Source: Populus alba
Taxonomy: Eukaryota; Streptophyta; Magnoliopsida; Malpighiales; Salicaceae
Assembly: GCF_005239225.2 (NCBI RefSeq)
Contig: NC_133302.1
Span: 248,001 to 312,000 of the forward strand
Reading direction: 5' to 3'
DNA length: 64,000 bases
The notes under the pieces were generated by a model, which saw only the letters and a program-made list of their open reading frames with translations, searched no databases and was not told where the DNA came from. Within the stretch, counting starts at the first letter, position 1. The number at the start of each line of letters is the position of its first letter. Below, piece by piece: positions 8,700 through 60,603 of this stretch. The position numbers were made by a program, and so were the translations under genes.

Positions 8700-9310
8700 A
8701 TGTTGACAAATAGTTGATTAACTTCGACTAATGACATTTAAAGAGATGACCTTGAACAATGAAATACCTTATCATTGTCGTATTGTGTTAATTTAGATAT
8801 CAGATTGCCAAATGCTTAAATGTTGAAAAATGATTGATTAGCTTCGGCTAATGGCATCTAAAGGGATGACCGGGACAAACAAATGATTAGCTTTGGTTAA
8901 TGGCATCCGAAGGGATGACCGGGACAAACGATTGATTAGCTTCGATTAATAGCATTCAAATGGATGACCGAAATAAATGAATGATTAGCTTTGGCTAATG
9001 GCATTCGAAGGGATGACCGGGACAAATGGTTTGATTAGTTTTTGGCTAATGGCATCCGAAGGGATGACCGGGACAAACAAATGATTAGCTTCGACTAATG
9101 GCATCCTAGAGGATGACCGGGACAAACGATTGATTAACGGGCTAATAGCATCCGAATGGATGACCGAAATAAATGAATGATTAGCTTCAGCTAATGGCAT
9201 CAAAAGGGATGACCGGGACAAGCGGTTGATTAGTTTTGGCTAATGGCATCCGAAGGGATGACTGAGACAAAAAGTTGATTAGTTTTGATTGATGGCATTC
9301 GAAGGGGATG
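8700..9310 (+). repeat. Hairpin tandem array, ~50-bp unit
   Basis: About 10 units carry ATTAGC - TTCG - GCTAAT (for example near 8838) followed by GGCATCC and GATGACCGGGACAAA-type spacers. The stem ATTAGC/GCTAAT is kept with wobble or loop variants (TTTG, TTCA, TTCG). At its left end a larger ~115-bp unit (TAGATATCAGATTGCC...) is also duplicated (8677 and 8790). Confidence 0.85.
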
Positions 9311-28475: not shown

Positions 28476-29706
28476 TTATGCATGTTGATAAAATTATTGC
28501 TAAAAAACAAAACAGTTTTCCTTGATGAATCCTCAAGTTTTGATTTGAGCCTGTTGTTTTCCTTTGAAGTTCACAAAAATATCACCTCATCACAAACCAT
28601 CAAAAAAAAAGAAAGAAGAGATATACTCAAAATCAGAGTTTAAAGTGGATAGAAAGAACCATGGGAAAAACCATTTTAATCTTACAACGGGTCAATTTCT
28701 GTTTTCAAAATACAAGACAATCGAAGGACTACATTGAATGACGTGTCTTGGGTCTTTGACCAAAGAAGCTTGAATTTCAAAAATACTTTTCAAAAAACTG
28801 ATATCTCTCTGATTTCATTTCAACAATTAGACTTGAATAGACATGACCTTTGAAGTATGAGATTTGATTCCAGAACAAGAAAGATTTTCAAACAAGAACA
28901 TCAATTTAGTTTGCAAAATCCTTGACAAAAATGACATCAACATTTCTCGACACTCCTTGAAACGTTGACCACCTGGGGGCAATACAGTGGACCCTAAGAA
29001 GGAAAACAGACAGTATCCAGATCAGCTGGGGGCAAAGAAAGAATCAGATGATGAGTCATCAAAGTCCCGGAAAGTTTTAACATCTGGCAATGATAAATAA
29101 AAACCTTTTTGAGTATAAACCGATGAACGAACCTTCAGATCATATTGGGGGGCAATGTTGTTCAAAGACAATCCATGATTTAGTGAACTTCAGCAGCAAT
29201 TGATGAGCAACGCTGCACTAGAAGGATATTTTCATATCTTCATTTTGGTTTATCATCTTCAACATGGTTATGACTTTGGATCGATGTTATCACAAAGTTG
29301 CATGTGAACGAATGCACCCACCAAGACTGACAGTGGGACCATTTGTTTTGAAGCTCAAATGCACGCTTCACCGCATGAATACGGGTGATAAAATGGATCA
29401 TTGATGATGCCAACGCATTTCTTTTCATGATTTGATTTGACAAGCTGGAAGGAATCCATAGAGAAGAACATCGAGTTTACAATGATGAGCTTTTTACTGC
29501 AAAGCATGAGAACCATGTCTGGATGACTTGGCAGTTCCATGAAGGCTGGTGACCATACATACTTGAATGGTGTTTCAACCGAAGGCAAGTTCATGACTGA
29601 TTAACAATCTTGATGGGTGTTGGCATGATGGGCACAATCAATCAGAGGATAATTCTCAGAAGAAGCCAGGAGAGAAAATCCTTCATGATGAATCAAGCAG
29701 TACCAT
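28476..29706 (+). other. 3' interior shared with element A
   Basis: Aligns with 112-1455, including repeated CTGGGGGCAA motifs at about 28972 and 29028. Ends abruptly at 29706. Confidence 0.75.
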
Positions 29707-30345
29707 ATTAATAAATGATTAGCTATGGTAATGGTACCATAGATGAATTACCAGAATGAATAAATGATTTACTTTGGGTAAATGGCATCCTACATGGATC
29801 ATCGGGATTAATAAATGATTAGCTATGGTAATGGCACCATAGATGAATTACCAAAATGAATAAATGATTAGCTTCGGTAAGTGGCATCCTAAATGGATAA
29901 TCGAGATTAATAAACGCTTAACTATGGTAATGACACCATAGATGAATTACCATAATGAATAAATGATTAGCTATGGTAATGGCACCATAGATGAATTACC
30001 AGAATGAATAAATGATTTACTTTGGGTAAATGGCATCCTACATGAATCATCGAGATCAATAAATGATTAGCTATGGTAATGACACCGTAGATGAATTACC
30101 AAAATGAATAAATGATTAGCTTCGGTAAGTGACATCCTAAATGGATAATCGAGATTAATAAACGATTAACTATGGTAATGACACCATAGATGAATTACCA
30201 GAATGAATAAATGATTAGCTATGGTAATGGCACCATAGATGAATTACCAGAATGAATAAATGATATACTTTGGGTAAGTGGCATCCTAAATGGATAATCG
30301 AGACTAATAAACGATTAATCTATAGTAAGTGGCATCCTAAAAGCA
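29707..30345 (+). repeat. Dimeric hairpin tandem array (~49+51 bp) in a chromovirus-like LTR remnant
   Basis: Units alternate: type A contains GATTAGCTATGGTAATGG, CACCATAG and ATGAATTACC; type B contains TTTGGGTAAATGGCATCC and GGATCATCG. About 12 half-units, so a ~100-bp dimer is the repeating module. Type A folds CTATGGT/ACCATAG. Related in sequence to the array at 8700-9310, so this is part of the same LTR family; its left half is lost and its right half resumes at 42723. Confidence 0.85.
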
Positions 30346-30359
30346 TTATTGTTTTGAAG

Positions 30360-31740
30360 AATGACACTTGTTCGGCTAAAAAGGCTTTCTTTTTCACATT
30401 CAGTTTTCTCTTCACAATGCATAGATCTTTCAAAAATTTAGCATAGGAAGGAACCTGTTTAATAGCATCCAACAAAGGTATATTGATCCTTACCTGTTTG
30501 AAAGTTTCAAAGATTTCAGAGTTGTGATTGACTTTCCTTTGTTTGGTCATGGCATGAGGAAATGGAAGTGCTGGTGGGGAATCAACCTTTTCTTTGCAAT
30601 GTTCAGGTTCAACCCCTTCCTTACCCTCAGAGATAGACTCATCATCTTTCTCACAAGGTTCAAGAATGGGTTTCTCCAACCAGGGTTATATGTTTGTGAG
30701 TATGGGTTATGGTTTGGCCTTTGGAAACTGTTTAAAGCATGAGCTTGTTCATGGAGGCATTCCCTAAAAGAAGGCAAAGTTGGACAATCATTTGTTGAGT
30801 GTTCCTTGGTTTCATAGATTTGACACACAATGTCTTGAACATATTTTAATTGACCACTCTTTTTCAATTCAAGTGCTTCGACTTTTCTAGCTAAAGATGC
30901 AAACTTGGCTTGGAGGTCATGATCTTCCCTAAGGTTGTGCATACCTCCACTAGATGTATGAGGTTGAGTTTTACTTGGTGCCTCATAAGTACCTGTGGTG
31001 TCCTAATTTTGAGCATTTTCGGCTAGCAAGTCTAGGTACTCCATTGCTTCATTAGGGTCTTTATCTTCAAAAGTTCCATTGCACATCAATTCAACCATTT
31101 GCCTATCTCTAGGTGTTAAACCTTCATAAAAATGTGAAACCAATCTCCATGTTTCAAAACCATGATGAGGGCAAGTATTAAGCAGATCTCGATACCTATC
31201 CCAACATTGGTAAAATGTTTCTCCTGGCTTTTGAGTGAAAGTGATGATTTGTCTTTTGAAAGAGTTTGTTTTGTGAGACGGAAAAAACTTCGTTAAAAAT
31301 TGTTGTTGCATTTCATCCCAAGCACGAATAGATCCTGGTCTCAAATTTTATAGCCATGTTTTAGCTTTATCTTTTAATGAAAAAGGAAAAAGCTTTAATC
31401 GAATGATGTTCATGCTACAATTTGAGTCATTATAGGTATTACAAACCTCCTCAAATTCCCTTAAATGCAAGTATGGATTTTCTAAGTCTAAGCCATGAAA
31501 AGATGGTAAAAGTTGAATAATGTCTGGCTTAAAATTAAAATGAGATGCATCAGGAGGGAAAACTATGCATGAGGGTGCACTTGTTCTTGTGGGATTCATA
31601 TGGTCTCTAAGTGTTCTCATACGGTTATTCTCATTATTCTCATTATGAAGTGATTGATTATCTTCTACGGCCATATTTTCTGAAAATGATGAGGATACCC
31701 TACAAAGTCTACCACTTAATGTACGTGACCAAACTCTCAT
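30360..31740 (-). pseudogene. Athila-like gag and start of pol (broken)
   Basis: Gag motifs in order: PSFHGLDLENPYLHLREFEEVC, a stop after KDKAKTWL, then SIRAWDEMQQQFLTKFFP, YQCWDRYRDLLNTCPHHG, FYEGLTPRDRQMVE. A degenerate zinc knuckle, VCQIYETKEHSTNDCP, has Tyr where the second Cys is expected. Further down, RINIPLLDAIKQVPSYAKFLKDLC marks the gag-protease junction typical of Athila. Three or more frame breaks. It is cut near 30360 within ...KKKAFLAEQVS. Confidence 0.85.
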
Positions 31741-31863
31741 GCACGTGTAAGAAGAGAATAAAAGGAAGAAAATAAAAGAGAAGAAAAAGAAACAAAAGTT
31801 AAATAAAATGAAAAATGAAAAGAGAAGATAAAATAAATATTATAATTTATACAAGAATTTACC

Positions 31864-31881
31864 TCCCCGGCAACGGCGCCA
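31864..31881 (-). other. Primer binding site, Athila/Calypso type
   Basis: On the minus strand TGGCGCCGTTGCCGGGGA, the PBS known from Athila/Calypso-like plant elements (assigned to tRNA-Asp in the literature as I recall). Six bases separate it from the LTR end at 31888. Confidence 0.85.
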
Positions 31882-31887
31882 AAAACT

Positions 31888-32006
31888 TGACACGACCAAA
31901 AGCTTGATGTCTTCTCCCAAGTGCAGGAGTGTTGAAGTAATAAATAACCCGGCAAGACCGGGGTCGAACCACAGAGAGGTTAATTGTATAAATTATAAAT
32001 AACAAC

Positions 32007-32038
<32 letters not shown>

Positions 32039-32392
32039 AATAACGATAATAATAACAATAATAGTAGTAGTAATAATAATATTAATAGTAATAATAATAA
32101 TACTCAGTACGTGGCGTTGTTATACCTGAGAATGATCTAAAAGATCGGGTCACCGGTTTCCAGCTTATATACTGAGTTTATGAAAAGATCAAAGTTATAT
32201 ATTATATAATATAAATAGATGTAAAATAATAATAATAATAGTAATAGTAATAATAATAATAATAATAATAAAGAAGAGGAGGAAGAAATTATTGAGAACT
32301 TTGAGTTGGAAGATTAATGTAAGGATTAAACAATGATAAAAATAAATGTCAAGGTTAGAGGATCCACTAATGGTACTTCAAACAAGTATAGG
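31888..32392 (-). repeat. U5-side fragment of the Athila-like 5' LTR
   Basis: The plus strand starts TGACACGACCAAAAGC; the phrase CCCAAGTGCAGGAGTGTTGAAGTAATA and the GGTCGAACCACAGAG box are typical of Athila-type LTR ends. Contains (AAC)n/(AAT)n runs. It stops at 32392, where repeat unit 1 begins. Confidence 0.7.
31999..32110. repeat. (AAC)n/(AAT)n simple repeats
   Basis: AAC repeats then imperfect AAT/AGT repeats; a second AAT run lies at 32226-32275. Confidence 0.9.
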
Positions 32393-32649
32393 AATAACAA
32401 TTTTGTCAAATGGTTTTAATAATAGCAACAACAGTTAGTAAGTTAGTTTTTTTTTTTTACTTACTACTACCCTCCCCCCCCCCCAACCAAAACGAGACAT
32501 TGTCCTCAATGTCCTAAGGTAGAAAGATAGAGTATAGAAGATATCACCTGAAACAGCGGACAATGACAAACCTAAAACACACTTAAACAAATATAAGAAG
32601 TAACAAAACAAAATAATATGCTATTAATAAAACCAAAAGACACAAGGTT

Positions 32650-33127
32650 TCACAGATGAAGGCTCAAATCTAATCTAAGCTTTTTACGGCTTTCCTTAGT
32701 TGACCAATCTAGGCAACTCATGCAGGGATCAATGACAAGGGTGAAAGATTGTAGTTGGTCAATCAATTGTTCAGCAGTAGCAGCAGAGATTATGATTTGT
32801 CGTGCCGAAGATGTTAGAAATTCATGTTCCACAGCTTGATCAAGGAAAGACAACAACTTATCATAAAAACCATTGACATTTAACAAACCTATAGGTTTAT
32901 GGTGAGTGTGCAGTTGTGCCCAAGAGGAAATATGAAAGATCTCTTCCAATGTGCCCAGACCACCTGATAATCGGACCTTTACTTCAATCAACCAACGAAT
33001 ATCTTTAGGAATTCCATGATTCATTAACAACCTCAATCTTGCACACCTAGCACGGTAAATTTTTGTAATCGCATTTGAAGGCAGAGCGGGAAAATACCTT
33101 TTCAAACTTTTCAAGAGTGGTGTCCAT
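32650..33127 (-). pseudogene. LOG-like chimeric ORF, copy 1
   Basis: Same gene as the intact copy at 40191-40667. One extra A in a short A run near 33104 shifts the frame after about eight codons from the ATG (33127); the LOG-like part (GGLGTLEE to the stop) is intact in its own frame. The indel could be a sequencing error. Confidence 0.75.
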
Positions 33128-33338
33128 TTTCAAAAAAAGAATTGGAGATGAGATTCAAAGAAGGGAGAAAGAGCACAGAATTGTACAAAATATATACAGA
33201 TATTAGTTTATTTGGGAAACTGAAAGAACCGACTTATGTCACGGAGTACCGTTATCCGCCATTTGACCGGGGTGAGAGAGAGACTAGCAAAACAATAGAT
33301 ACACCAAAACAAAACACAAAACAATGTGAGAAAAAGAA

Positions 33339-34086
33339 TCAATCTTTATATACAGGATCACTCAATTCAATAGAGTCATTTTCAACTGAAAAATTGTCAA
33401 AATAAACTTTCAAACGATGCCTATTTACCTTGAAAACATTGCCATTCTTTGGATCCTCAATATCACAGGCCCCATATGGATACACATGTTTCACAATGAA
33501 AGGACCGCTCAATCTTGATCTTAATTTTCCAGGAAATAAATGGAGTCGAGAATTATATAAAGCAAGACTTTTTCACCAACATTGAATTTTTTCTCAATAT
33601 TCTCTTGTCATGAAACTCTTTAATTCTTGCTTTATGAATTTTCGAATTGTCATATGCATCATTTCTTATTTCCTCAAGCTCATTTATTTGCAATTTTCGC
33701 AGCTGACTAGCATCATCAAGGTTTGAATTGAAAGCTTTAATAACCCAATAAGCTTTATGTTCAATTTCCACAGGCAAGTGACAAGGTTTTCCATAGACTA
33801 GTCTATAAGGTGACATACTTAATGATGTTTTATAAGCAGTTCGATAAGCCCAAAGTGCATCATTAAGTCTTAAAGACCAGTCTTTCCTATCAGGGTTTAC
33901 TATTTTCTCCAAGATTTGTTTGATCTCCCTATTAGCAAGCTCTATTTGTCCACTTGTCTGAGGGTGATAAGGGGTGGCAACTTTGTGTGTGATTCCATAT
34001 TTCTTCATTAAAGAATCAAATGGCTTGTTGCAGAAATGTGTTCCACCATCACTTATCATGGCTCGAGGGATTCCAAATCGACTCAA
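33339..34086 (-). pseudogene. Athila-type integrase C-terminal half, copy 1
   Basis: As in copy 3 (40877-41623) but with homopolymer indels near 33557 and 33590 that break the frame in the ...FHDKRILRK segment. Confidence 0.85.
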
Positions 34087-34095
34087 AATATTGTA

Positions 34096-35185
34096 AATTA
34101 TAAATCTAGATTAAGTATTTGTTTTACCAAGTGTTATGCAACATAAATCTAGATTAACCATTTAACAAGCAAAGTATTAAAGGTGAACAAGATAACAAAT
34201 ATAAAACATGTTAGTATCCAACGTTAAGGTCCATGTTAAGTTTATATTATACTTATTCTTACACCATTAGTGTACCCTTTTCACCTTGACATAATTAACT
34301 TAGCTAAACATAATGAAAGAAAGAAACATAAATGAACAAGAATAGAACATAAATGAGAAAGAAGTTAACTAAATAAAGGAAAGGAAATGAAGTGCATGAA
34401 CTTGATATTAATGAAAACAAAACATAAGCAATACAAAGAGAGAAAGCAAGAGCATGATCTTGATCTGAACACCAAGATGCCTCAATACATGGTAAGTGCC
34501 TCCTTTTATAGGCCAAAATTTGGAACTATTGATTGTTGACTAATTGATGAGTGGGTGGCCACATCTTGACTTGGTGACAATCCTTATCTTCTTGTCTGAA
34601 AAAAACATCATTGCTAACATCATAATTTGCCCAGAATCCTCAGGAATGTTCTAGGAAATTGTCTCAGCTTTCCAACAAAAAAAGATGAGGTCATTTGGAC
34701 TTCTAGAACTCAAGATATGGGATGAACACTAAATAGTGTTTGGGCTGTAGGACAGCTTCGGACTTCTTCGTTGTTCCTTCAATTTGGACTTCAAAACGAC
34801 CTTTTTTAAATCTTGGGCTCCCATGAAAGTTGTAGGCCTTTGTCTTACCTTTCCATCCATATAAAATGGACCTAAATCCGAGATCTAGAGCTCCTGATAT
34901 GATCCAATTACCGAGCAATGTTCCGGTTTGGACTGCACCGACATCTCTTTTCTAAGTTTGGCCATCTCTTTGTCCTTTCACTTTCAATACTTAAACTCAT
35001 CAATCAATCCTTTTATTTATGTGATAGGCCTACATATAAGATGAGCATTTACCATAAATTAAGGTATCTTATAGTATCAAACTTGTTATTATAAAACATG
35101 CTTTAGTTAAGAAGTTATTGATACTTCAAGTGCAAAATGATGATATAAAACCTTGATAAACATGCACTTTTAAGTACTAATCACA
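34096..35185 (-). repeat. LTR U3 segment, unit 1
   Basis: The minus strand begins TGTGATTAGTACTTAAAAG right after a PPT and runs ~1.09 kb, then joins integrase sequence directly. A TATA box CTATAAAA (34504-34511) lies about 0.4 kb upstream of the integrase junction. The rest of the LTR is missing here. Confidence 0.75.
34504..34511 (-). promoter_or_regulatory. LTR TATA box, unit 1
   Basis: CTATAAAAGGAGGC on the minus strand; the same motif is at 38273-38280 and 42040-42047 in the other units. It faces the integrase-LOG segment, so it could drive its transcription. Confidence 0.55.
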
Positions 35186-35194
35186 CCCCCCAAC
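35186..35194 (-). other. Polypurine tract, unit 1
   Basis: Minus strand GTTGGGGGG immediately before TGTGATTAG. Confidence 0.75.
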
Positions 35195-36160
35195 TAGCTT
35201 ATTACTAGTCCCTAGTAATCTAAAGCGTTAAAATAGAGAAACAATTTGCAAGCTCCACAAAGCTAGGCATTCATCATTCAACTTCCATTAATCTATCCAG
35301 ATAAACAAACTCTCATTAAATTTATATTTATGCTTCATACTTCTTAAACAAGATATTAATAAACCTTCTTTTTATGTGCTCATTATATGAAAACATAGAT
35401 TATGGGGCTTTTGTTGGAAGAAAACAATATTATGTTCAAATGTTTAAAGTGAACTTCCTTAGGTTGGGATTATTATTATTACTATTTTTTTTTCTTTTTT
35501 TCTATTTTTTTTCTCTTTTTTTTTTTATTTATATGCACATACAACACAATGTATCTTTAACCCATGTAATGAGTTTTCAGCTAATGACTCCCAGACCAGT
35601 TGGTCTTAGGGCATTAGGTGTTGAGACACCCCTACGAGCTTAGTAACTCGGGTTGCAGATACTGATACGTAGATAGTGCAATGTTTGATTCCCTTAAGCT
35701 TTTCTCCTTAACCCATGTAGCAAGCTTTGGGCCAATAGCTCCCAAGTCAGTTGACTTTAGGGTATTAGGTGTTAAAACACCCCTTCAGACTTAATTGCTT
35801 AGGTTAGGGAGGCTACGAAAACCAAACTTATCTACGTTTTTTTTATTATCATCAATATTATCAATTTTTTTTTTGAAAATTATATACTATCCCTTTCCCT
35901 TAGTTGTTACCTTTAACAAAAGAACATAATTAATGTAATAAATCCAAAATGCAACCATAGTCATATGTTAAAGTGTGTGTGTGAAAATGAAGGTTTTATG
36001 AATACTTGTTAAATGAGTATATGAAGCAGAATCAAGTGATAACAATGCGAGAGTTTGTAAACCTGAATATTTCAAGAAGTATTATGATAGACCTTGCTAA
36101 TGATACTTACTAAGATGCGTCTCTAGAGTCAATAAAATTGACTCCATACTCTGCCATCCT
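35195..36160 (-). other. Non-coding 3' interior, unit 1
   Basis: No gene. Contains two diverged copies (about 35557-35640 and 35700-35790) of a segment with AACCCATGTA, CAGTTG and TTAGGGYATTAGGTGTT, a feature seen in Athila-type 3' regions. Confidence 0.55.
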
Positions 36161-36416
36161 AATAACAATTTTGTCAAATGGTTTTAATAATAGCAACAAC
36201 AGTTAGTAAGTTAGTTTTTTTTTTTTACTTACTACTACCCCCCCCCCCCAACCAAAACGAGACATTGTCCTCAATGTCCTAAGGTAGAAAAGATAGAGTA
36301 TAGAAGATATCACCTGAAACAGCGGACAATGACAAACCTAAAACACACTTAAACAAATATAAGAAGTAACAAAAACAAAATAATATGCTATTAATAAAAC
36401 CAAAAGACACAAGGTT

Positions 36417-36894
36417 TCACAGATGAAGGCTCAAATCTAATCTAAGCTTTTTACGGCTTTCCTTAGTTGACCAATCTAGGCAACTCATGCAGGGATCAAT
36501 GACAAGGGTGAAAGATTGTAGTTGGTCAATCAATTGTTCAGCAGTAGCAGCAGAGATTATGATTTGTCATGCCGAAGATGTTAGAAATTCATGTTCACAG
36601 CTTGATAAAGGAAAGACAACAAACTTATCATAAAAAACCATTGACATTTAACAAACCTATAGGTTTATGGTGAGTGTGCAGTTGTGCCCAAGAGGAAATA
36701 TGAAAGATCTCTTCCAATGTGCCCAGACCACCTGATAATCGGACCTTTACTTCAATCAACCAACGAATATCTTTAGGAATTCCATGATTCATTAACAACC
36801 TCAATCTTGCACACCTAGCACGGTAAATTTTTGTAATCGCATTTGAAGGCAGAGCGGGAAAATACCTTTTCAACTTTTCAAGAGTGGTGTCCAT
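36417..36894 (-). pseudogene. LOG-like chimeric ORF, copy 2
   Basis: The ATG and the GGLGTLEE motif are in frame, but several 1-base indels (near 36595, 36622, 36637) end the frame soon after NVNGF. It also has a substitution in ...RQIIIS (GTCATGCC instead of GTCGTGCC on the plus strand). Confidence 0.75.
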
Positions 36895-37104
36895 TTTCAA
36901 AAAAAGAAATTGGAGATGAGATTCAAAGAAGGGAGAAAGAGCACAGAATTGTACAAATATATACAGATATTAGTTATTTGGGAAACTGAAAGAACCGACT
37001 TATGTCACGGAGTACCGTTATCCGCCATTTGACCGGGGTGAGAGAGAGACTAGCAAAACAATAGATACACCAAAACAAAACACAAAACAATGTGAGAAAA
37101 AGAA

Positions 37105-37853
37105 TCAATCTTTATATACAGGATCACTCAATTCAATAGAGTCATTTTCAACTGAAAAATTGTCAAAATAAACTTTCAAACGATGCCTATTTACCTTGAA
37201 AAACATTGTCATTCTTTGGATCCTCAATATCACAGGCCCCATATGGATACACATGTTTCACAATGAAAGGACCGCTCAATCTTGATCTTAATTTTCCAGG
37301 AAATAAATGGAGTCGAGAATTATAAAGCAAGACTTTTTCACCAACATTGAATGTTTTTCTCAATATTCTCTTGTCATGAAACTCTTTAATTCTTGCTTTA
37401 TGAATTTTCGAATTGTCATATGCATCATTTCTTATTTCCTCAAGCTCATTTATTTGCAATTTTCGCAGCTGACTAGCATCATCAAGGTTTGAATTGAAAG
37501 CTTTAATAACCCAATAAGCTTTATGTTCAATTTCCACAGGCAAGTGACAAGGTTTTCCATAGACTAGTCTATAAGGTGACATACTTAATGATGTTTTATA
37601 AGCAGTTCGATAAGCCCAAAGTGCATCATTAAGTCTTAAAGACCAGTCTTTCCTATCAGGGTTTACTATTTTCTCCAAGATTTGTTTGAATCTCCCTATT
37701 AGCAAGCTCTATTTGTCCACTTGTCTGAGGGTGATAAGGGGTGGCAACTTTGTGTGTGATTCCATATTTCTTCATTAAAGAATCAAATGGCTTGTTGCAG
37801 AAATGTGTTCCACCATCACTTATCATGGCTCGAGGGATTCCAAATCGACTCAA
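37105..37853 (-). pseudogene. Athila-type integrase C-terminal half, copy 2
   Basis: Same as copy 3, with a one-base insertion near 37688 (in ...REIKQ) and one near 37200 (in NVFKV). Confidence 0.85.
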
Positions 37854-37862
37854 AATATTGTA

Positions 37863-38955
37863 AATTTATAAATCTAGATTAAGTATTTGTTTTACCAAGT
37901 GTTATGCAACATAAATCTAGATTAACCATTTAACAAGCAAAGTATTAAAGGTGAACAAGATAACAAATATAAAACATGTTAGTATCCAACGTTAAGGTCC
38001 ATGTTAAGTTTATATTATACTTATTCTTACACACATTAGTGTACCCTTTTCACCTTGACATAATTAACTTAGCTAAACATAATGAAAGAAAGAAACATAA
38101 ATGAACAAGAATAGAACATAAATGAGAAAGAAGTTAACTAAATAAAGGAAAGGAAATGAAGTGCATGAACTTGATATTAATGAAAACAAAACATAAGCAA
38201 TACAAAGAGAGAAAGCAAGAGCATGATCTTGATCTGAACACCAAGATGCCTCAATACATGGTAAGTGCCTCCTTTTATAGGCCAAAATTTGGAACTATTG
38301 ATTTGTTGACTAATTGATGAGTGGGTGGCCACATCTTGACTTGGTGACAATCCTTATCTTCTTGTCTGAAAAAAACATCATTGCTAACATCATAATTTGC
38401 CCAGAATCCTCAGGAATGTTCTAGGAAATTGTCTCAGCTTTCCAACAAAAAAAAGATGAGGTCATTTGGACTTCTAGAACTCAAGATATGGGATGAACAC
38501 TAAATAGTGTTTGGGCTGTAGGACAGCTTCGGACTTCTTCGTTGTTCCTTCAATTTGGACTTCAAAACGACCTTTTTAAATCTTGGGCTCCCATGAAAGT
38601 TGTAGGCCTTTGTCTTACCTTTCCATCCATATAAAATGGACCTAAATCCGAGATCTAGAGCTCCTGATATGATCCAATTACCGAGCAATGTTCCGGTTTG
38701 GACTGCACCGACATCTCTTTTCTAAGTTTGGCCATCTCTTTGTCCTTTCACTTTCAATACTTAAACTCATCAATCAATCCTTTTATTTATGTGATAGGCC
38801 TACATATAAGATGAGCATTTACCATAAATTAAGGTATCTTATAGTATCAAACTTGTTATTATAAAACATGCTTTAGTTAAGAAGTTATTGATACTTCAAG
38901 TGCAAAATGATGATATAAAACCTTGATAAACATGCACTTTTAAGTACTAATCACA
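37863..38955 (-). repeat. LTR U3 segment, unit 2
   Basis: Nearly identical to 34096-35185; TATA box CTATAAAA at 38273-38280. It starts TGTGATTAG after the PPT (38956-38964) and runs straight into integrase at about 37860. Confidence 0.75.
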
Positions 38956-40190
38956 CCCCCCAACTAGCTTATTACTAGTCCCTAGTAATCTAAAGCGTTA
39001 AAATAGAGAAACAATTTGCAAGCTCCACAAAGCTAGGCATTCATCATTCAACTTCCATTAATCTATCCAGATAAACAAACTCTCATTAAATTTATATTTA
39101 TGCTTCATACTTCTTAAACAAGATATTAATAAACCTTCTTTTTATGTGCTCATTATATGAAAACATAGATTATGGGGCTTTTGTTGGAAGAAAACAATAT
39201 TATGTTCAAATGTTTAAAGTGAACTTCCTTAGGTTGGGATTATTATTATTACTATTTTTTTTTTCTTTTTTTTCTATTTTTTTTCTCTTTTTTTTTTTTT
39301 TATTTATATGCACATACAACACAATGTATCTTTAACCCATGTAATGAGTTTTCAGCTAATGACTCCCAGACCAGTTGGTCTTAGGGCATTAGGTGTTGAG
39401 ACACCCCTACGAGCTTAGTAACTCGGGTTGCAGATACTGATACGTAGATAGTGCAATGTTTGATTCCCTTAAGCTTTTCTCCTTAACCCATGTAGCAAGC
39501 TTTGGGCCAATAGCTCCCAAGTCAGTTGACTTTAGGGTATTAGGTGTTAAAACACCCCTTCAGACTTAATTGCTTAGGTTAGGGAGGCTACGAAACCAAA
39601 CTTATCTACGTTTTTTTTATTATCATCAATATTATCAATTTTTTTTTTGAAAATTATATACTATCCCTTTCCCTTAGTTGTTACCTTTAACAAAAGAACA
39701 TAATTAATGTAATAATCCAAAATGCAACCCATAGTCATATGTTAAAGTGTGTGTGTGAAAATGAAGGTTTAAGAATACTTGTTAAATGAGTATATGAAGC
39801 AGAATCAAGTGATAACAATGCGAGAGTTTGTAAACCTGAATATTTCAAGAAGTATTATGATAGACCTTGCTAATGATACTTACTAAGATGCGTCTCTAGA
39901 GTCAATAAAATTGACTCCATACTCTGCCATCCTAATAACAATTTTGTCAAATGGTTTTAATAATAGCAACAACAGTTAGTAAGTTAGTTTTTTTTTTTTT
40001 ACTTACTACTACCCTCCCCCCCCCCAACCAAAACGAGACATTGTCCTCAATGTCCTAAGGTAGAAAGATAGAGTATAGAAGATATCACCTGAAACAGCGG
40101 ACAATGACAAACCTAAAACACACTTAAACAAATATAAGAAGTAACAAAACAAAATAATATGCTATTAATAAAACCAAAAGACACAAGGTT

Positions 40191-40667
40191 TCACAGATGA
40201 AGGCTCAAATCTAATCTAAGCTTTTTACGGCTTTCCTTAGTTGACCAATCTAGGCAACTCATGCAGGGATCAATGACAAGGGTGAAAGATTGTAGTTGGT
40301 CAATCAATTGTTCAGCAGTAGCAGCAGAGATTATGATTTGTCGTGCCGAAGATGTTAGAAATTCATGTTCCACAGCTTGATCAAGGAAAGACAACAACTT
40401 ATCATAAAAACCATTGACATTTAACAAACCTATAGGTTTATGGTGAGTGTGCAGTTGTGCCCAAGAGGAAATATGAAAGATCTCTTCCAATGTGCCCAGA
40501 CCACCTGATAATCGGACCTTTACTTCAATCAACCAACGAATATCTTTAGGAATTCCATGATTCATTAACAACCTCAATCTTGCACACCTAGCACGGTAAA
40601 TTTTTGTAATCGCATTTGAAGGCAGAGCGGGAAAATACCTTTTCAACTTTTCAAGAGTGGTGTCCAT
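40191..40667 (-). CDS. Chimeric ORF with LONELY GUY (LOG)-like C-terminal domain, intact copy
   Basis: 158 codons from ATG (40667, context AAAATGG) to TGA. Residues ~1-54 ([18 protein letters not shown]...[11 protein letters not shown]) match nothing I recognise. Residues ~55-158 look like the C-terminal half of plant LOG, the phosphoribohydrolase that releases active cytokinin bases from their nucleotides: [59 protein letters not shown] and a LOG10-like tail DWSTKES...LDLSL. The signature PGGxGTxxE has Ser for Pro, and the nucleotide-binding N-half is missing, so enzyme activity is unlikely. It lies 209 bp behind an integrase fragment, where env-like genes sit in Athila elements. I read it as a captured host cDNA fragment. 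Alternative: a retroelement ORF with chance similarity, which the length of the match makes improbable. Confidence 0.72.
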   Translation of the reverse strand: MDTTLEKLKRYFPALPSNAITKIYRARCARLRLLMNHGIPKDIRWLIEVKVRLSGGLGTLEEIFHISSWAQLHTHHKPIGLLNVNGFYDKLLSFLDQAVEHEFLTSSARQIIISAATAEQLIDQLQSFTLVIDPCMSCLDWSTKESRKKLRLDLSLHL

Positions 40668-40876
40668 TTTCAAAAAAAGAATTGGAGATGAGATTCAAAG
40701 AAGGGAGAAAGAGCACAGAATTGTACAAATATATACAGATATTAGTTATTTGGGAAACTGAAAGAACCGACTTATGTCACGGAGTACCGTTATCCGCCAT
40801 TTGACCGGGGTGAGAGAGAGACTAGCAAAACAATAGATACACCAAAACAAAACACAAAACAATGTGAGAAAAAGAA

Positions 40877-41623
40877 TCAATCTTTATATACAGGATCACT
40901 CAATTCAATAGAGTCATTTTCAACTGAAAAATTGTCAAAATAAACTTTCAAACGATGCCTATTTACCTTGAAAACATTGCCATTCTTTGGATCCTCAATA
41001 TCACAGGCCCCATATGGATACACATGTTTCACAATGAAAGGACCGCTCAATCTTGATCTTAATTTTCCAGGAAATAAATGGAGTCGAGAATTATAAAGCA
41101 AGACTTTTTCACCAACATTGAATGTTTTTCTCAATATTCTCTTGTCATGAAACTCTTTAATTCTTGCTTTATGAATTTTCGAATTGTCATATGCATCATT
41201 TCTTATTTCCTCAAGCTCATTTATTTGCAATTTTCGCAGCTGACTAGCATCATCAAGGTTTGAATTGAAAGCTTTAATAACCCAATAAGCTTTATGTTCA
41301 ATTTCCACAGGCAAGTGACAAGGTTTTCCATAGACTAGTCTATAAGGTGACATACTTAATGATGTTTTATAAGCAGTTCGATAAGCCCAAAGTGCATCAT
41401 TAAGTCTTAAAGACCAGTCTTTCCTATCAGGGTTTACTATTTTCTCCAAGATTTGTTTGATCTCCCTATTAGCAAGCTCTATTTGTCCACTTGTCTGAGG
41501 GTGATAAGGGGTGGCAACTTTGTGTGTGATTCCATATTTCTTCATTAAAGAATCAAATGGCTTGTTGCAGAAATGTGTTCCACCATCACTTATCATGGCT
41601 CGAGGGATTCCAAATCGACTCAA
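40877..41623 (-). CDS. Athila-type integrase C-terminal half, intact copy
   Basis: About 248 codons, [19 protein letters not shown] (second catalytic Asp), [19 protein letters not shown] (catalytic Glu), [21 protein letters not shown], then the C-terminal GPF/Y-like module [19 protein letters not shown] and [10 protein letters not shown]. The zinc-binding N-domain and first Asp are absent, so it cannot integrate DNA. There is no true ATG at the start: the frame is joined straight to LTR U3 sequence near 41633. Copies 1 and 2 of the same segment are frameshifted. Confidence 0.85.
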
Positions 41624-41632
41624 AATATTGTA

Positions 41633-42722
41633 AATTATAAATCTAGATTAAGTATTTGTTTTACCAAGTGTTATGCAACATAAATCTAGATTAACCATTT
41701 AACAAGCAAAGTATTAAAGGTGAACAAGATAACAAATATAAAACATGTTAGTATCCAACGTTAAGGTCCATGTTAAGTTTATATTATACTTATTCTTACA
41801 CCATTAGTGTACCCTTTTCACCTTGACATAATTAACTTATCTAAACATAATGAAAAAAAGAAACATAAATGAACAAGAATAGAACATAAATGAGAAAGAA
41901 GTTAACTAAATAAAGGAAAGGAAATGAAGTGCATGAACTTGATATTAATGAAAACAAAACATAAGCAATACAAAGAGAGAAAGAAAGAGCATGATCTTGA
42001 TCTGAACACCAGATGCCTCAATACATGGTAAGTGCCTCCTTTTATAGGCCAAAATTTAGAACTATTGATTTGTTGACTAATTGATGAGTGGGTGGCCACA
42101 TCTTGACTTGGTGACAATCCTTATCTTCTTGTCTAAAAAAAACATCATTGCTAACATCATAATTTGCCCAGAATCCTCAGGAATGTTCTAGGAAATTGTC
42201 TCAGCTTTCCAACAAAAAAAAGATGAGGTCATTTGGACTTCTAGAACTCAAGATATGGGATGAACACTAAATAGTGTTTGGGCTGCAAGACAGCTTCGGA
42301 CTTCTTTGTTGTTCCTTCAATTTGGACTTCAAAACGACCTTTTTAAATCTTGGGCTCCTCATGAAAGTTGTAGGCCTTTGTCTTACCTTTCCATCCATAT
42401 AAAATGGACCTAAATCCGAGATCTAGAGCTCCAGATATGATCCAATTACCGAGCAATGTTCCGGTTTGGACTTTACCGACATCTCTTTTCTAAGTTTGGC
42501 CATCTCTTTGTCCTTTCACTTTCAATATTTAAACTCATCAATCAATCCTTTTATTTATGTGATAGGCCTGTATATAAGATAAACATTTACCATAAATTAA
42601 GGTATCTTATAATATCAAACTTGTTATTATAAAACATGCTTTAGTTAAGAAGTTATTGATACTTCAAGTGCAAAATGATGATATAAAACCTTGATAAACA
42701 TGCACTTTTAAGTACTAATCAC
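41633..42722 (-). repeat. LTR U3 segment, unit 3 (outer 5' LTR)
   Basis: TATA at 42040-42047. The terminal TG is altered (minus strand TTTAGTGATTAG), and no target duplication can be matched because the other end of the element is truncated. Confidence 0.7.
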
Positions 42723-43650
42723 TAAATTACTAGCTTCAGCTAATAACATCCTAGGTGGATAATCGAGATGAACAAATGATAATCGAAATGAATAAATGAC
42801 TACCTTCGGCTAATAGCATTCCAAATGGATAATCAGGACGAAGAAATGACTAGCTTTAGCTAATCACATCGTAATGGATGACCTAGATGAAGAAAAAAAA
42901 AAAAGAAGAAGAAGAATAAGAGAAAGAAGAAGAAACAGTTAATGGCACCCTAGTGGACAGCAAGATGAATAAATGATTGGCCTCGACTAATGGCTTCCCA
43001 AGAGGATTGTCGGATTTGAGTGTATGATTTAGTTTTAAGAAGAACTGATGTGGTCATGTATACTACGTTTGGATATACTAAGTATATGAAAGGACTATAA
43101 TAGTTATGCTTTAACCACAAAAAAACACTAAATCAGCTAACGACATTCGAGATGAATGATTGGGTTTGAGTACTGAAATTAGCCTCGTTAATTGATGGAT
43201 TAGTAACGGTGGTATTTACATAAGTAAAGGGAAATTGAAGAATGATGCTTTTTGGTCCATGAATAAAATGTGACTTTAATCCTGTTTTATTATGTTTCTT
43301 AAATGGCTTATAATGTTGAAAATTTCCTTGTATTGTAACAGGGACATCAATACCAATATGGTGCCAAAGGAAATTCATTTCGTGGCTCACACATTTCAAA
43401 AAAGAATTATATACTCGCATATTATGGGTGATATGAGTTCTGCATGAACGAACATGTAAATCACTTAATTAGTCATTCGGTCCCTTCTGTAAAAACTAGT
43501 AATTAAATATTGAAATGGAATATGAATGATAATGTATGAACTCGTGATAATATGAGATTAGAACAAGAATGAAAATTATGAATAAGTCGAGATGATAAAA
43601 AAAATAAAATCCAGCGACTTTGGCCTTGAAAAGGTTGGGTCGTTACAGTT
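42723..43650 (+). repeat. Right part of a chromovirus-like LTR remnant
   Basis: Begins with degenerate ATTAGCTTCAGCTAAT-like repeats (to about 43020), then sequence resembling 9560-9982 (AGGGACATCA, TACCAA, GGTGCC), and ends GGCCTTGAAAAGGTTGGGTCGTTACA, matching the end of the 6644-9982 LTR. With 29707-30345 it makes up one LTR split by the Athila-like element. Confidence 0.65.
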
Positions 43651-47344: not shown

Positions 47345-47844
47345 NNNNNNNNNNNNNNNNNNNNNNNNNNNNNNNNNNNNNNNNNNNNNNNNNNNNNNNN
47401 NNNNNNNNNNNNNNNNNNNNNNNNNNNNNNNNNNNNNNNNNNNNNNNNNNNNNNNNNNNNNNNNNNNNNNNNNNNNNNNNNNNNNNNNNNNNNNNNNNNN
47501 NNNNNNNNNNNNNNNNNNNNNNNNNNNNNNNNNNNNNNNNNNNNNNNNNNNNNNNNNNNNNNNNNNNNNNNNNNNNNNNNNNNNNNNNNNNNNNNNNNNN
47601 NNNNNNNNNNNNNNNNNNNNNNNNNNNNNNNNNNNNNNNNNNNNNNNNNNNNNNNNNNNNNNNNNNNNNNNNNNNNNNNNNNNNNNNNNNNNNNNNNNNN
47701 NNNNNNNNNNNNNNNNNNNNNNNNNNNNNNNNNNNNNNNNNNNNNNNNNNNNNNNNNNNNNNNNNNNNNNNNNNNNNNNNNNNNNNNNNNNNNNNNNNNN
47801 NNNNNNNNNNNNNNNNNNNNNNNNNNNNNNNNNNNNNNNNNNNN
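47345..47844. other. Assembly gap (500 N)
   Basis: Exactly 500 N, a usual placeholder for a gap of unknown size. Any open frame across it is meaningless. Confidence 0.98.
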
Positions 47845-50176: not shown

Positions 50177-51430
50177 TCGAGGGCTCGATGGCGCGCTCGA
50201 AAATAAATAAGACGAGGGCTCGAAGGCGCGCTCGAATGTAAGACGAGGGCTCGAAGGCGCTCTCGAATGGATAAGACGAGGGCTCGAAGGCGCGCTCGAA
50301 TGTAAGACGAGGGCTCGAATGGATAAGATGAGGGCTCAATGTAAGACGAGGGCTCGAAGGCGCTCTTGAATGGATAAGACGAGGGCTTGAAGGCGCGCTC
50401 GAATGTAAGACGAGGGCTCGAAGGCGCACTCGAATGGATAAGACGAGGGCTCGAAGGCGCGCTTGAATGTAAGACAAGGGCTCGAAGGCGTGCTCGAATG
50501 GAGGTAGGATAGAAAATGCACTACCTTTGATGGTCGAGGGCTCGAAGGCGCGCTCGAAAATAAATAAGATGAGGGCTCGAAGGTGCGCTCGAATGGAGGT
50601 AGGATAGAAAATGCACTAGCTTTGATGGTCGAGGGGAAGGCGCACTCGAAAATAAATAAGACGAGGGCTCGAAGGCGCGCTCGAATAGAGATAAGACGAG
50701 GGCTCGAAGGCGCGCTCGAATGTAAGACGAGGGCTCGAAGGCACGCTTGAATGGAGGTAGGATAGAAAATGCACTACCTTTGATGGTCGAGGGCTCGAAG
50801 GCGCGCTTGAAAATAAATAAAACGAGGGCTCGAAGGCGCGCTCGAATGTAAGACGAGGGCTCGAAGGCGCACTCGAATGGAGGTAGGATAGAAAATGCAC
50901 TACCTTTGATGGTCGAGGGCTCAAAGGCGCGCTCGAAAATAAATAAGACGAGGGCTCAAAGGCGCGCTGGAATGTAAGACGAGGGCTTGAAGGCGCGCTC
51001 GAATGGAGGTAGGATAGAAAATGCACTACCTTTGATGGTCGAGGGCTTGAAGGCACGCTCGAAAAGAACTCAGACGAGGGCTTGAAGGCGCGCTCGAATG
51101 GAGATAAGACGAGGGCTCGAAGGCGCGCTCGAATGGAGGTAGGATAGGAAATGCACTACCTTTGATGGTCGAGGGCTCGAAGGCGTGCTCGAAAAGAAAT
51201 AAGACGAGGGCTCGAAGGCGCACTCGAATGTAAGACGAGGGCTCAAAGGCACGCTCGAATGGAGGTAGGATAGAAAATGCACTACCTTTGATGGTCGAGG
51301 GCTCGAAGGCGCGCTCGAAAAGAACTCAGACGAGGGCTCGAAGGCGCGCTCGAATGGAGATAAGACAAGGGTTCGAAGGCGCGCTCGAATGAAGGTAGGA
51401 TAGGAAATGCATTACCTATGATGGTTGAGG
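50177..51430 (-). repeat. Satellite-like array, ~31-bp subunit in ~127-bp higher-order units
   Basis: Subunit of the form AGACGAGGGCTCGAAGGCG followed by CGCTCGAATG. A marker CTACCTTTGATGGTCGAGGG recurs near 50526, 50621, 50779, 50904, 51031, 51161 and 51287 (spacing mostly 125-130 bp). Open frames through it code only repetitive S/P/R/L text because the repeats lack stops; I do not treat them as genes. Confidence 0.92.
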
Positions 51431-53864: not shown

Positions 53865-54854
53865 TTAGCTATAGAAATGATAAGTGCCTTGGCAACCATC
53901 TTCAGTGAAACCATTCTTCTCACTTGGGTTAGCGATCTTACCTAACCCAATGGCTTGTTCAATCCTCTCAGCTATAACAACTAGGTCAGTAAAATATTGT
54001 GCAGAGCTTCTAACTAAGTATTCAAAGTATGGAGCTTTAAAGGTGTTGGAAAATAAACTGATCATTTCTTTTTCCAACATGGGAGGGTTAACTTGTGCAG
54101 CTACCCACTCCATCTTCGGGCATATTCTCTTATGGACTCTTTGTTATCCTTCTCCATAGCTTGCAAGCTTAATCGATCAGGGCCCCCATCTATATTAAAC
54201 TTATATTGCCTCATGAAGGCATCAACTAAATCCTTCCATTTTTTAACCTTGGTATTGTCCAACCGCATATACCAAGTGAGGGCAACATTACTCAGACTGT
54301 CTTGAAAGAAATGAATCAGCAGTTTCTCATCATGAACCACCTCAGCCATTTTGTTGCAGTATGCTTTGAGATGAGTTATAGGGCATTGAGTTCCCGTATA
54401 TTTAACAAATTCTGGCACTCTAAAATTTTTGGGAATGACAACGTTGGGCACCAAACACATCTCAGCAGCCTTTATAGGATCATATAGGTGAATTCCCTCA
54501 AATGCCCTCATCCTTTGTTCTAGGGCAATGAATTTGTTCAACTCATCTTCTTTTACCATTTTGCTCTTTTGAGATTCATTCTCTGTAGAATCAATGGTAA
54601 ACGACATTCTTGTGGGGTATGCTGGATGAAACTGCATGGCTTGTTGAAAATCAGATGACAACCCATTTGCCCCCAGATTGTGTAGATTGAAGGGATTTAC
54701 AAGCATAGGTTCAAGCTGAGCTGTAAATGTTGCTTTTCCGGATTTATCTCTCAAGACCTGCTCGAGTAGATTAGTAAGCCTTGCGACTTCTTCTTAAGAT
54801 TGTCCACCTCTTTTTAATGTTGGGCTTCCAACTGGGCTCTTTCTTCGTTTTCCA
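53865..54854 (-). pseudogene. Ogre-like gag (broken)
   Basis: Starts at ATG 54854 with MENEERAQLEAQH, a stop, then a frame change into LTNLLEQVLRDKSGKATF (coiled-coil-like N-part). The main frame (54754-54101) has FRVPEFVKYTGTQCPITHLKAYCNKM, LTWYMRLD and a tail KESIREYARRW. A one-base shift near 54105 leads into VAAQVNPPMLEKEM and YFEYLVRSSAQYFTDLVVIAERIEQAI. The order fits gag of Ogre/Tat elements. No protease or RT follows. Confidence 0.8.
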
Positions 54855-57390: not shown

Positions 57391-60300
57391 TCATATATGA
57401 GAGGAGAGTAATGTTGCAGGGAGAGCTTTTGTAAATACGTCAGCCAATTGGAACTTTGTAGAAATATGTGCAGTCTTCAGAATTCCTTCTTGAATCTTGT
57501 CATGGATTAGATGACATTCTATCTCGATATGTTTGGTCCTTTCGTGGAATACTGGGTTCGAAGCAATGTGTAATGCAGCTTTGTTATCACAATGCAATGC
57601 AACAGCATGAGGATGCGAAACTTGTAGGTATGTGAGGAGATAACGTAGCCATGGCTCGGTATTCAGCCTCTGCTGAGGATCGAGAAACAACTGATTGCTT
57701 CTTGGATTTCCAAGAGATTAAAGATGAGCCAAGAAATATGCAAAAACCAGAAACTGAATGTCTGGTGTCAGGACATGATGCCCAATCAGAATCAGAGTAT
57801 GCGATGAGATCCAAAGTGTTGATAGAAGGGAAGAAAAGGCCTTGCCCTAGTGCTCCTTTAAGATATTTCAGGACTTTGAAGGCAACTGTTAAGTGAAGAT
57901 TAGTGGGACAGTCCATGAATTGACTTAAAATCTGCACACTATAAGATATATCTGGCCTGGTAATCGTTAAATATAGAAGTTTGCCAACTAACTTCCTGTA
58001 ATAGGTAGGATCAGAGAGGATGTCACCTTTGTCTTTGCTAAGTCGCAGGTTTTGCTCCATGGGGAGTTTGGAAGGCCGAGACCCCAAAGTGCCTGAACTG
58101 GCTAAGATGTCCAGAGCATATTTCCTCTGACATATTTGTATTCCTTGTGTTGTTCTGGCTATTTCAAGCCCAAGGAAATAACGTAATGTTCCCAAGTCTT
58201 TGGTCTTAAATTTGTTATTAAGAAAGACCTTGATTTCTTCAACAACAGGAGGGGAGTCACTTGCCACTATAATGTCATCGACATATACCAGCAATGATGT
58301 GAAAGAGGAAGCATCTCGCTTGATGAAGAGACTGTAATCAGACTTAGATTGACAAAAGCCAAAATCAAGCAGGGCAGCAGAGAACTTGGAGTACCATTGT
58401 CGTGATGCTTGTTTTAAACCATAGAGACTCTTAAGTAGTTTGCAGACTTGGTGAGGGGACCCTTTGGTGTATCCAGGAGGACGCCTCATATATATTTCTT
58501 CCTGCAAATCTCCATGTAAAAATGCATTATTCACATCAAATTGATACAAACCCCATCCTTGTACAACTGCAATGGCCAAGAGGCAGCGCACGGTGACTAG
58601 CTTGACAACAGGGGAGAATGTTTCATGGTAGTCAATACCCTCTTGCTGTGTGTAGCCCTTGGCAACTAATCTTGCTTTGAATCTTTCAATACTACCATCT
58701 GCATGATATTTAATCTTATAGACATATTTGCAGGCAATAGGTCTTTTGCCAGGAGGTAGGTCGGTTAATGTCCATTTATGGTTAGACTCTAATGCCTCCA
58801 ACTCATTTTGCATAGCTGTATGCCAGTGTGGTTCAAGGACAACTTGATCATATGCCTGTGGCTTGGTATGAGAGGATATCGATGCAGTGAATACTTGAAA
58901 GGGTAAAGAGAATTGTTTGTATGAAATAACAGTACTCAAGGGAAATTGTTTACCTGGAAGAACCTTAATTGTTGTGGCCTGAATTGGATTGGGTGAATTG
59001 AGAGAGACCAGCTGACAGTGAAAATCTTGCAAATACTTGGGAGCCTGTGTCATTCTACTAGACTTGCGAAGAGGAATATGAGGAGGAGAAGAAGATGTGG
59101 AAATGTGAGGGTGTGAGTTATTTGAGAAAGAAGGAGATGTAATACTTGTGTCACACGTTTCAGGTAATGTAGCAGAAGGTGAAGATGAATCAGCAGATGT
59201 GGAAGGTGAAGAAGAAATGTGAGTTATTGGATCAAATGAAGTGTGAATGGTGCTTAGGGGGTCTAAGGTAGAGGAGTAGAAAGGTTGGTTCTGTTCTTGT
59301 AGCAGAGGAGATATTGCATCAGAAGAAGGAGAGGGTGCAGATGTGTGGAAAGGAAAAATATTCTCATGGAATGTGACGTTTCTGGATAAAAAAGTGTCAT
59401 TGGTTTCTAAGTCTAATAATTTGTAACCTTTCACCCCAAATGGATAGCCAAGGAAAATGCATCTTCTAGCTCGAGAATCAAATTTTCTTCTTCCCTGACT
59501 TAAAGTGGTGGCAAAACATAGGCACCCGAAGACTCTTAAATGATCATAGGTAGGAGCATGGTTAAAGATAGCTGCATAAGGTGTCGAATTTTGTAGCAGG
59601 GGTGTAGGGATACGGTTTATAAGATAGGTTGCTGTAAGAACACAATCATTCCAAAACTCTAAAGGCAGATTAGCTTGGAATCTAAGGGCTCTAGCAACAT
59701 TTAAGATGTGTTGGTGTTTTCTCTCCACTATCCCATTTTGTTGCGGGGTCTCGACACAAGTTTTCTGGTGGATGATGCCATTTTTGTGATAGAAATCTAT
59801 CAGCTGAAACTCTGTTCCATTATCACTTCTTAGGTACTTAATCCTAGTTCCAAATTGGGTGTTAACGAGGTTATAAAAAGACTCTATGGATCTTTGTGTG
59901 TCTGATTTATTTTTTAGCAAATAGACCCAAGTGTTGCGAGAGATATCATCAACAATTGTTAAGAAATATCTACTTCCATCATAGGCAGTCACAGAACATG
60001 GTCCCCATAAGTCACAATGGATAAGTTCAAAGTTGAAAGAAGTTTTGTGTGAGCTGTGATTAAAAGGAAGTTTGTGTTGTCTTGCCATGGGGCAAACAAA
60101 ACAAGGAGTTTCAGTAGAACCTGAGTTTGTGATTACAATAGGATCTCTAATCAATTGCAATCTAGAGTTGGAAATATGGCCTAAACGGCAGTGCCATAAA
60201 TGAAAGACAGAACTAGTATTTGTGCTGCAAGCATAATGCAAACGTTGAGTATCAAAATGCTTGGATAATTTGCACATCAAGGCAGTAGGAGATACTTGAA

Positions 60301-60601
60301 TGTGCTGGAATTGATATAAACCATCCTTCATTTCACCCAATCCAATCGTTGTCCATGATGTAAGGTCCTACAGAAAACAAACGTTTGACAGGAAAATGAA
60401 GCAGCAACAGATGCTTTTAGTTAGTGCTGGCGCAGAAAGAAGATTGAAAGAAAATGAAGGAACACGCAAAACATTTTCAAGGATGATCAAATTTGAAAGT
60501 TTAACGGTTCCTATGTGTGTGACTGGAATTTCTTGTCCATTAGGAAGCTTGACATTGTAGGACACTGTTGCTGTAATTTGTGTAAAGAATACAGTGCTAC
60601 A
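57391..60601 (-). pseudogene. copia pol: protease, integrase, RT, RNase H
   Basis: The protease text GATNHMIC begins at about 60608 after a 2-base frame break. A TAG at 60368-60370 interrupts ...FLSNVCFL*DLTSWTTIGLG. From there ~917 codons are open: LWHCRLGHIS (pre-integrase HHCC), FELIHCDLWGP, RSDNGTEF and ETPQQNGIVERKHQ (DD35E integrase), a Ser-rich linker, WTLTDLPPGKRPIACKYVYK, DVNNAFLHGDL, LVYVDDIIVAS (58274-58290, RT active site), then YSDSDWASCPD and [13 protein letters not shown] (RNase H). A frame change at about 57645 moves into [35 protein letters not shown] and the C-terminus (stop 57391). Three simple lesions separate it from an open frame. Confidence 0.92.
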
Positions 60602-60603
60602 GA

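Follow-up and report, generated by a model that had tools for sequence, protein, structure and literature searches.

A captured LOG gene and a carlavirus-type reading frame in an Athila-type retrotransposon family of Populus alba, with chimeric copies that probably stem from spliced element RNA

How does half of a plant enzyme gene come to lie, without introns and behind the beginning of another reading frame, inside a retrotransposon? The question is raised by a 64,000-nucleotide stretch of the Populus alba genome (416 Mb, 96 contigs), positions 248001–312000 of contig C19, hereafter the window. At 32393–42722 of the window, three units follow one another on the minus strand (A, 42722–39937; B, 38954–36165; C, 35184–32393), repeating at about 3.77 kb as a preliminary description of the window had noticed, and contain the C-terminal half of LOG, a cytokinin-activating enzyme, in a chimeric open reading frame (ORF). 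That description proposed that a fragment of a spliced LOG transcript had been joined to an Athila-like element. The answer that we consider probable is that an Athila-type family took up LOG as a whole coding sequence, which it carries together with a carlavirus-type ORF, and that splicing of element RNA followed by reverse transcription produced the chimeras repeatedly.

The chimeric ORF had been credited to every unit, but only unit A holds it whole and with its ATG (40191–40667, minus strand, 158 aa); in unit B (36628–36894, minus strand) the frame breaks before ARQIIIS and before DWSTKES, and in unit C (32650–33114, minus strand) the ATG is out of frame. Homology of the unit A ORF to LOG was confirmed by a match to Pfam PF03641 (E 2.1e-22, residues 53–127 of the listed frame) and by the best solved structure, At2g37210 (2a33, E 3.4e-24). 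It opens with the start of a second ORF, ORF-A (54 codons plus one base, 40505–40667), up to a splice-donor position and continues with the C-terminal half of LOG (40191–40504), which comprises the last 104 residues, not about 105, and the stop codon. The window chimeras read SGGLGTLEE, so the strict PGGxGTxxE motif is absent, and the N-half of LOG is missing. What had been taken for a Pro-to-Ser substitution is a Ser codon contributed by the upstream ORF at the junction between 40505 and 40504 (36732 and 36731 in unit B, 32964 and 32963 in unit C).

The chimeric ORF was used to query the whole genome, yielding 2361 first-look candidates, and the best 150 of these 2361 were scored; most of the 150 match only residues ~50–160, many within open frames of 221 codons. 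All 28 copies that were read (8 with 20 kb each, 20 with 4.5 kb) come from the scored 150 and were picked by LOG similarity, which makes the sample uninformative on copies without LOG. A 217-aa intronless LOG frame starting MxGSSSHH occurs in 23 of the 28, and 22 of these 23 have PGGxGTxxE and likewise 22 have TMxDR, motifs that, with YGGGxLGLMG, we take to be catalytic or binding parts of LOG. The loss of the N-half, which had been held to argue against enzyme activity, is a fair argument for the window copies, whereas these relatives keep the full length. One element LOG aligns to 2a33 over residues 8–202 (E 1.2e-60); its identity to At2g37210 (49.7% over 195 residues) and to At5g11950 (45.7% over 197) is lower than that between these two proteins (68.2%), which places it, on these comparisons, on a long branch. 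Since the relatives carry the whole LOG, its truncation is, judged from them, a later event inside the element and does not date from capture. A TATA-like box with a leader stands 69–72 nt upstream of the LOG ATG in 23 of 23 copies.

The absence of introns was compared with host LOG genes. A 92-residue query returned mainly element copies, and a last-exon LOG fragment (52 residues) was used instead; it found 19 host loci (65–96% identity), ranked before the first element-like rows, and the same end point, residue 48 of 52, is shared by 18 of the 19 matches. Thirteen LOG genes have been reported for Populus (P. trichocarpa) (PMC3866579) versus the 19 LOG-type loci here, some of which may be near duplicates (C9:11200678/11257295 and C9:5878871/6113303). 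Three host genes were read (L047, L048 and L049, partial, 501 bp each). All three have an intron at KP/VGLL with both ends visible (the slash marks the boundary); an intron at LPG/G shows both ends in L048 and L049 and its acceptor side in L047, and a donor-like GAG/GT, donor side only, follows KLE or KME in each. The element LOG is continuous at LPG/G, at KP/VGLL and after KLE/KME. Because host introns lie at places where the element copy is continuous, a spliced host transcript is supported as the source, in agreement with the intron loss first proposed.

Alignment of the window ORF to its relatives locates the chimeric junction exactly. The ORF tracks ORF-A to ...GATTATCAG and continues with LOG from GTGGTCTGG...; in the relatives, GATTATCAG is followed by GTGAGT, giving CAG/GTGAGT, and TTGCCTTACCAG stands before GTGGTCTGG (CCAG/G acceptor). 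The piece that the chimeras lack has GT and AG ends and is 963–1012 nt long in 23 copies, so that the junction equals the exact removal of a GT-AG intron. Among the 28 copies, the donor context was found in 23, and 22 of these carry the donor 9-mer CAGGTGAGT, which fits the consensus 5' splice site. The acceptor coincides exactly with the old exon–exon junction of LOG.

In the whole genome, the exact unspliced donor site was counted 609 times and the junction 13 times, the latter always with 0 mismatches although one was allowed, and the control pattern gave 0 in both searches. The chimera is thus rare, but the LOG ORF itself is ordinary in the element family here, and a LOG-type domain is reported for Gypsy elements of Citrus and P. 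trichocarpa; the refuting condition named in the preliminary description, the chimera as a standard gene of Athila elements in many plant families, is therefore satisfied by half. The 13 junction sites amount to eight places when the C19 region is counted once, six of which were read (the other two are C6:13985299 and C16:10447264), and the chimeras stand on at least three backbones: one with the whole integrase region, one with a 730-nt loss and one with another loss. Trees were built from the 590 nt upstream and the 480 nt downstream of the junction, with 29 rows; 7 rows are chimeric and represent six places, as L001 and unit A are near-copies of each other. Units B and C, L028 (no upstream homology) and the five copies in which the exact donor is missing were left out. 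A single chimera clade was rejected by the approximately unbiased test (p-AU 0.0005 for the 5' part, 0.0021 for the 3' part), the trees implying 5 changes in the 5' part and 4 in the 3' part. One clade being rejected and several backbones being involved, the chimeras point to repeated events, most simply splicing and then reverse transcription.

ORF-A is the second extra ORF of the family and lies between integrase and LOG. In 21 of the 28 copies the start of ORF-A was located (a 182-aa frame in 15, shorter in 6), with a TATA-like box 57–68 nt upstream of the ATG in 19 of the 21; both LOG and ORF-A could possibly have promoters of their own. Three of three copies scanned matched Pfam Viral_NABP (31.3–31.8 bits, cut-off 23) and Carla_C4 (26.4–26.9 bits, cut-off 20.9). 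A PDB search with ORF-A gave none at E 1, and a scan of IMG/VR gave 13 stretches matching the pattern, 0 of them confirmed, with no plant virus protein collection searched. Like the cysteine-rich, nucleic-acid-binding proteins of carlaviruses, ORF-A has a basic stretch followed by cysteines besides its Pfam matches above cut-off, but it is located in a retrotransposon and its function is putative; such proteins are described as suppressors of RNA silencing for several viruses, and the one from chrysanthemum virus B, which suppresses weakly, as a transcription factor causing hyperplasia (PMC12172455).

The Athila assignment of the host element, already made in the preliminary description, agrees with primer site and domain order, and the family is accordingly called Athila-type here. 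The primer site TGGCGCCGTTGCCGGGGA, which we take to match tRNA-Asp, lies 6–7 nt past the end of the long terminal repeat (LTR) in three copies and is present in 7 stretches altogether. The integrase half was a weaker call in the window, where the fragment scores 24.9 bits against Pfam rve, below the cut-off of 32.6, but two related elements reach 59.1 and 60.7 bits. As to the additional RNase H (aRH), by which Tat differs from Athila, the Pfam matches of one copy with reverse transcriptase (RT) included no RNase H family beyond those of the RT-RNase H part. LTR pairs of the 8 copies read over 20 kb are 99.5, 99.4, 99.4, 99.1 and 98.4% identical in five, ~92% in c8 and 95.5% in c17 (with internal repeats); no pair was found in c4. 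Of three copies examined, two have target-site repeats on either side (ATGAT and TCGTC), and the flanks of the third mismatch. Compared with c9, the RT part is missing in 6 of 7 copies, 14 of 27 share the ~730-nt integrase loss and 3 have a larger loss that takes the start of ORF-A, LOG still being carried. Given these losses in LOG-bearing copies, much of what was read must, on this evidence, move with help. Many of the copies L009–L046 are without RT or part of the integrase, a large non-autonomous fraction with an open LOG frame.

Constraint on both ORFs was estimated from polymorphisms as w, the ratio of nonsynonymous (N) to synonymous (S) change, with sites treated as independent and standard-length frames only, which lowers w. 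For LOG (23 frames), polymorphisms present in at least 2 copies gave w 0.29 (N 20, S 21, p 8e-5) and singletons 0.54 (N 49, S 27, p 0.009). Residues 1–109 of LOG, outside the search query, gave 0.33 for shared polymorphisms (p 0.006) and 0.77 for singletons (p 0.24), and ORF-A from codon 55 (15 frames, also outside the query) 0.18 (p 0.0026) and 0.57 (p 0.07). The older changes are under constraint and the younger ones less, a pattern that a need of replicating lineages for both proteins would produce.

The sequence of events that we favour would run as follows. An Athila-type LTR retrotransposon would have acquired LOG as a complete coding sequence by way of a spliced plant mRNA and kept it behind the integrase, beside the upstream carlavirus-like nucleic-acid-binding (cysteine-rich) ORF. 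A subset of the element transcripts would be spliced from the 5' site CAG/GTGAGT of ORF-A to the acceptor CCAG/G within LOG, and reverse transcription of such RNA, more than once, would fuse the 54 codons of ORF-A in frame to the C-half of LOG. The window copy would then have lost everything from inside the LTR to inside the integrase and been multiplied into a tandem triple by unequal recombination between LTRs.

Several points weigh against this account. Choosing from the best 150 of 2361 candidates favours conserved copies, and restricting the selection counts to standard-length frames acts in the same direction; YGGGxLGLMG is kept in only 18 of the 23 full-length copies, a sign of some motif decay. 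If only well-supported branches are counted, no more than 2 changes (5') and 1 change (3') are forced, and the bootstrap of the 5' tree is unsettled, with L041, which has lost most of the stretch, on a very long branch. Splicing itself is deduced from genomic sequence. Donor and acceptor, moreover, share TTA.CAGGTG (CAGGTG exact), so that microhomology would lead to an identical product, and a single junction could be carried to several backbones by RNA recombination.

The shared motif is the basis of the main rival, in which recurrent deletions, by RT slippage or DNA end joining between the direct repeats TTATCAGGTG and TTACCAGGTG ~960 nt apart, replace splicing. The repeats agree at 9 of 10 bases, and plain deletions do occur, as the window joins between LTR and integrase, at 32393 and at 30672 are unlike splicing. 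The repeat falls, however, on a consensus donor and, at the ancient exon junction of LOG, on an AG acceptor, and all 13 junction sites are identical at the join, so we regard repeat-mediated deletion as unlikely. About equally improbable is a single splicing or deletion event carried across backbones by recombination of co-packaged RNAs: some copies are placed differently in the 5' and 3' trees, as mosaics would be, and the few changes forced by well-supported branches suit it, but the chimeras show five donor-side variants beside the junction (CCGA, CCAA, CTGG, CCGG, TCGA), each also found in unspliced copies among the first 100 of the 609 places.

A further objection concerns the LOG ORF, which might be an inert passenger, open only through the youth of the copies. 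LTR pairs up to 99.5% identical would allow this, as would the singletons in LOG 1–109, which do not differ from neutral; the constrained shared polymorphisms of the same residues and the TATA-like box with leader ahead of every LOG ATG speak against it, and we give it little credence. That a truncated spliced LOG transcript was joined near residue 54 at capture, as first proposed, would explain the missing introns but is rejected as highly improbable, because relatives carry the whole 217-aa LOG and a separate element ORF begins with the 54 leading codons.

The preferred history of splicing, reverse transcription and later rearrangement also accommodates the structure of the window locus. Each unit is made up of the first ~1075 nt of the LTR, the integrase C-half, the chimeric ORF and a 3' untranslated part. 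In unit A the LTR part (41650–42722, minus strand; from a ~1.73-kb LTR, about 93–96% identical to those of relatives) is joined by a deletion with filler to the integrase C-half ORF (40877–41623, minus strand). This join was considered as a splice product and rejected, the filler resembling the adjoining LTR (judged by eye). A spacer of ~980 nt separates A from B and B from C, and a polypurine-like tract and the next LTR come after units A and B; the first spacer (38955–39936, minus strand) holds the 3' untranslated part and the polypurine tract and reaches the next LTR. The LTR parts of units B and C lie at 37881–38954 and 34113–35184 (both minus strand). Unit C ends at 32393, where the 3' part of another same-family LTR follows (31887–32390, minus strand) and leads into the leader and gag part of a further same-family element (30340–31886, minus strand) that has an internal deletion near 30672. 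Splicing was likewise rejected for the joins at 32393 and 30672, where inspection by eye showed no donor–acceptor pattern.

Over 2778 columns, units B and C are set apart by 3 substitutions and 20 gap runs, the latter mostly single bases in homopolymers, and their frameshifts may therefore be errors of the assembly consensus. Unit A differs from both at 17 sites, every one inside the first 885 columns (LTR), so that the LTR of unit B is a hybrid; with the A-specific sites confined to the LTR, the tandem fits unequal exchange between two LTRs of one element. A second trio of junction sites lies at C19:97327–114236, ~174–184 kb from the window trio. Near L025/L026 in this set (C19:97–114 kb), the DNA ahead of the LTR also matches the window (99.2%), and the set is for this reason taken as a regional duplication and not as a second insertion. 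A further LTR element (LTR pair 99.6%) interrupts it.

Elsewhere in the window, 47345–47844 is a 500-N assembly gap, and ORFs listed over it are artefacts. At 57587–61866 there is a Copia-type element whose pol frame has 917 aa and whose gag frame has 420 aa, and a gag fragment of a different retrotransposon lies at 54101–54754. Tandem arrays of ~49 bp with related sequences are found at 29701–30341 and 8828–9306, with further likeness at 42717–42895, and a CGAGGGCTCGAAGG-type repeat array at 50178–51430 has a G+C content above that of its surroundings.

LOG-type domains in plant Gypsy elements are already known. In Citrus sinensis, C. clementina and P. trichocarpa, LTR retrotransposons of Gypsy type have been reported to carry the YgdH (LOG) domain (Alvarado-Marchena et al. 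2022, PMC9289625), in accordance, as that paper states, with Steinbauerova et al. 2011; the domain in Gypsy-type elements and the genus Populus are common to both studies, but the YgdH section of that paper gives domain presence only, with no intactness, selection, introns, viral-type ORF or spliced copies. The AlkB-carrying Gypsy elements of Phalaenopsis, described in the same source, similarly have a cellular-type enzyme gene fixed as an extra ORF; the enzyme is another one, and its activity in vitro was demonstrated (PMC9289625). Athila, Calypso and Diaspora share the primer site a few nt past the LTR and an extra region after gag-pol, but their extra ORFs are envelope-like or absent and the primer site lies 5 bp past the LTR, compared with 6–7 nt here (PMC1142308, PMC6317226). 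Ogre is likewise a plant Gypsy element in which a subset of the RNA is spliced; splicing in the present family would differ by joining two extra ORFs (PMC6317226). No pairing of LOG with a carlavirus-type ORF in an element was found in the searches made of open-licence literature, nor was an earlier account there of the ORF pair, its intactness, the matched host introns or the recurrent spliced-type copies.

What the family gains from its cargo can be put forward tentatively. Element LOG, from whichever host gene it came, would be expected to raise active cytokinin, and the ORF-A protein may act on silencing or cell growth. A recently active element might then keep, under selection, a LOG and silencing-suppressor-type cassette that provides dividing, permissive cells for transposition and inheritance, with alternative splicing fusing the ORFs into a third product; this extension is speculative, and we hold it rather doubtful as a whole. 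Should the LOG ORF be active, host cytokinin levels could be affected by a family that has no fewer than 609 ORF-A donor contexts (not a LOG count), and the 13 reported Populus LOG genes would be part of the picture only. The repeated exact junction would be a genomic record of element RNA splicing, which is checkable in existing RNA data, and the pairing of LOG with a viral-type protein makes the retention of host genes by retrotransposons testable.

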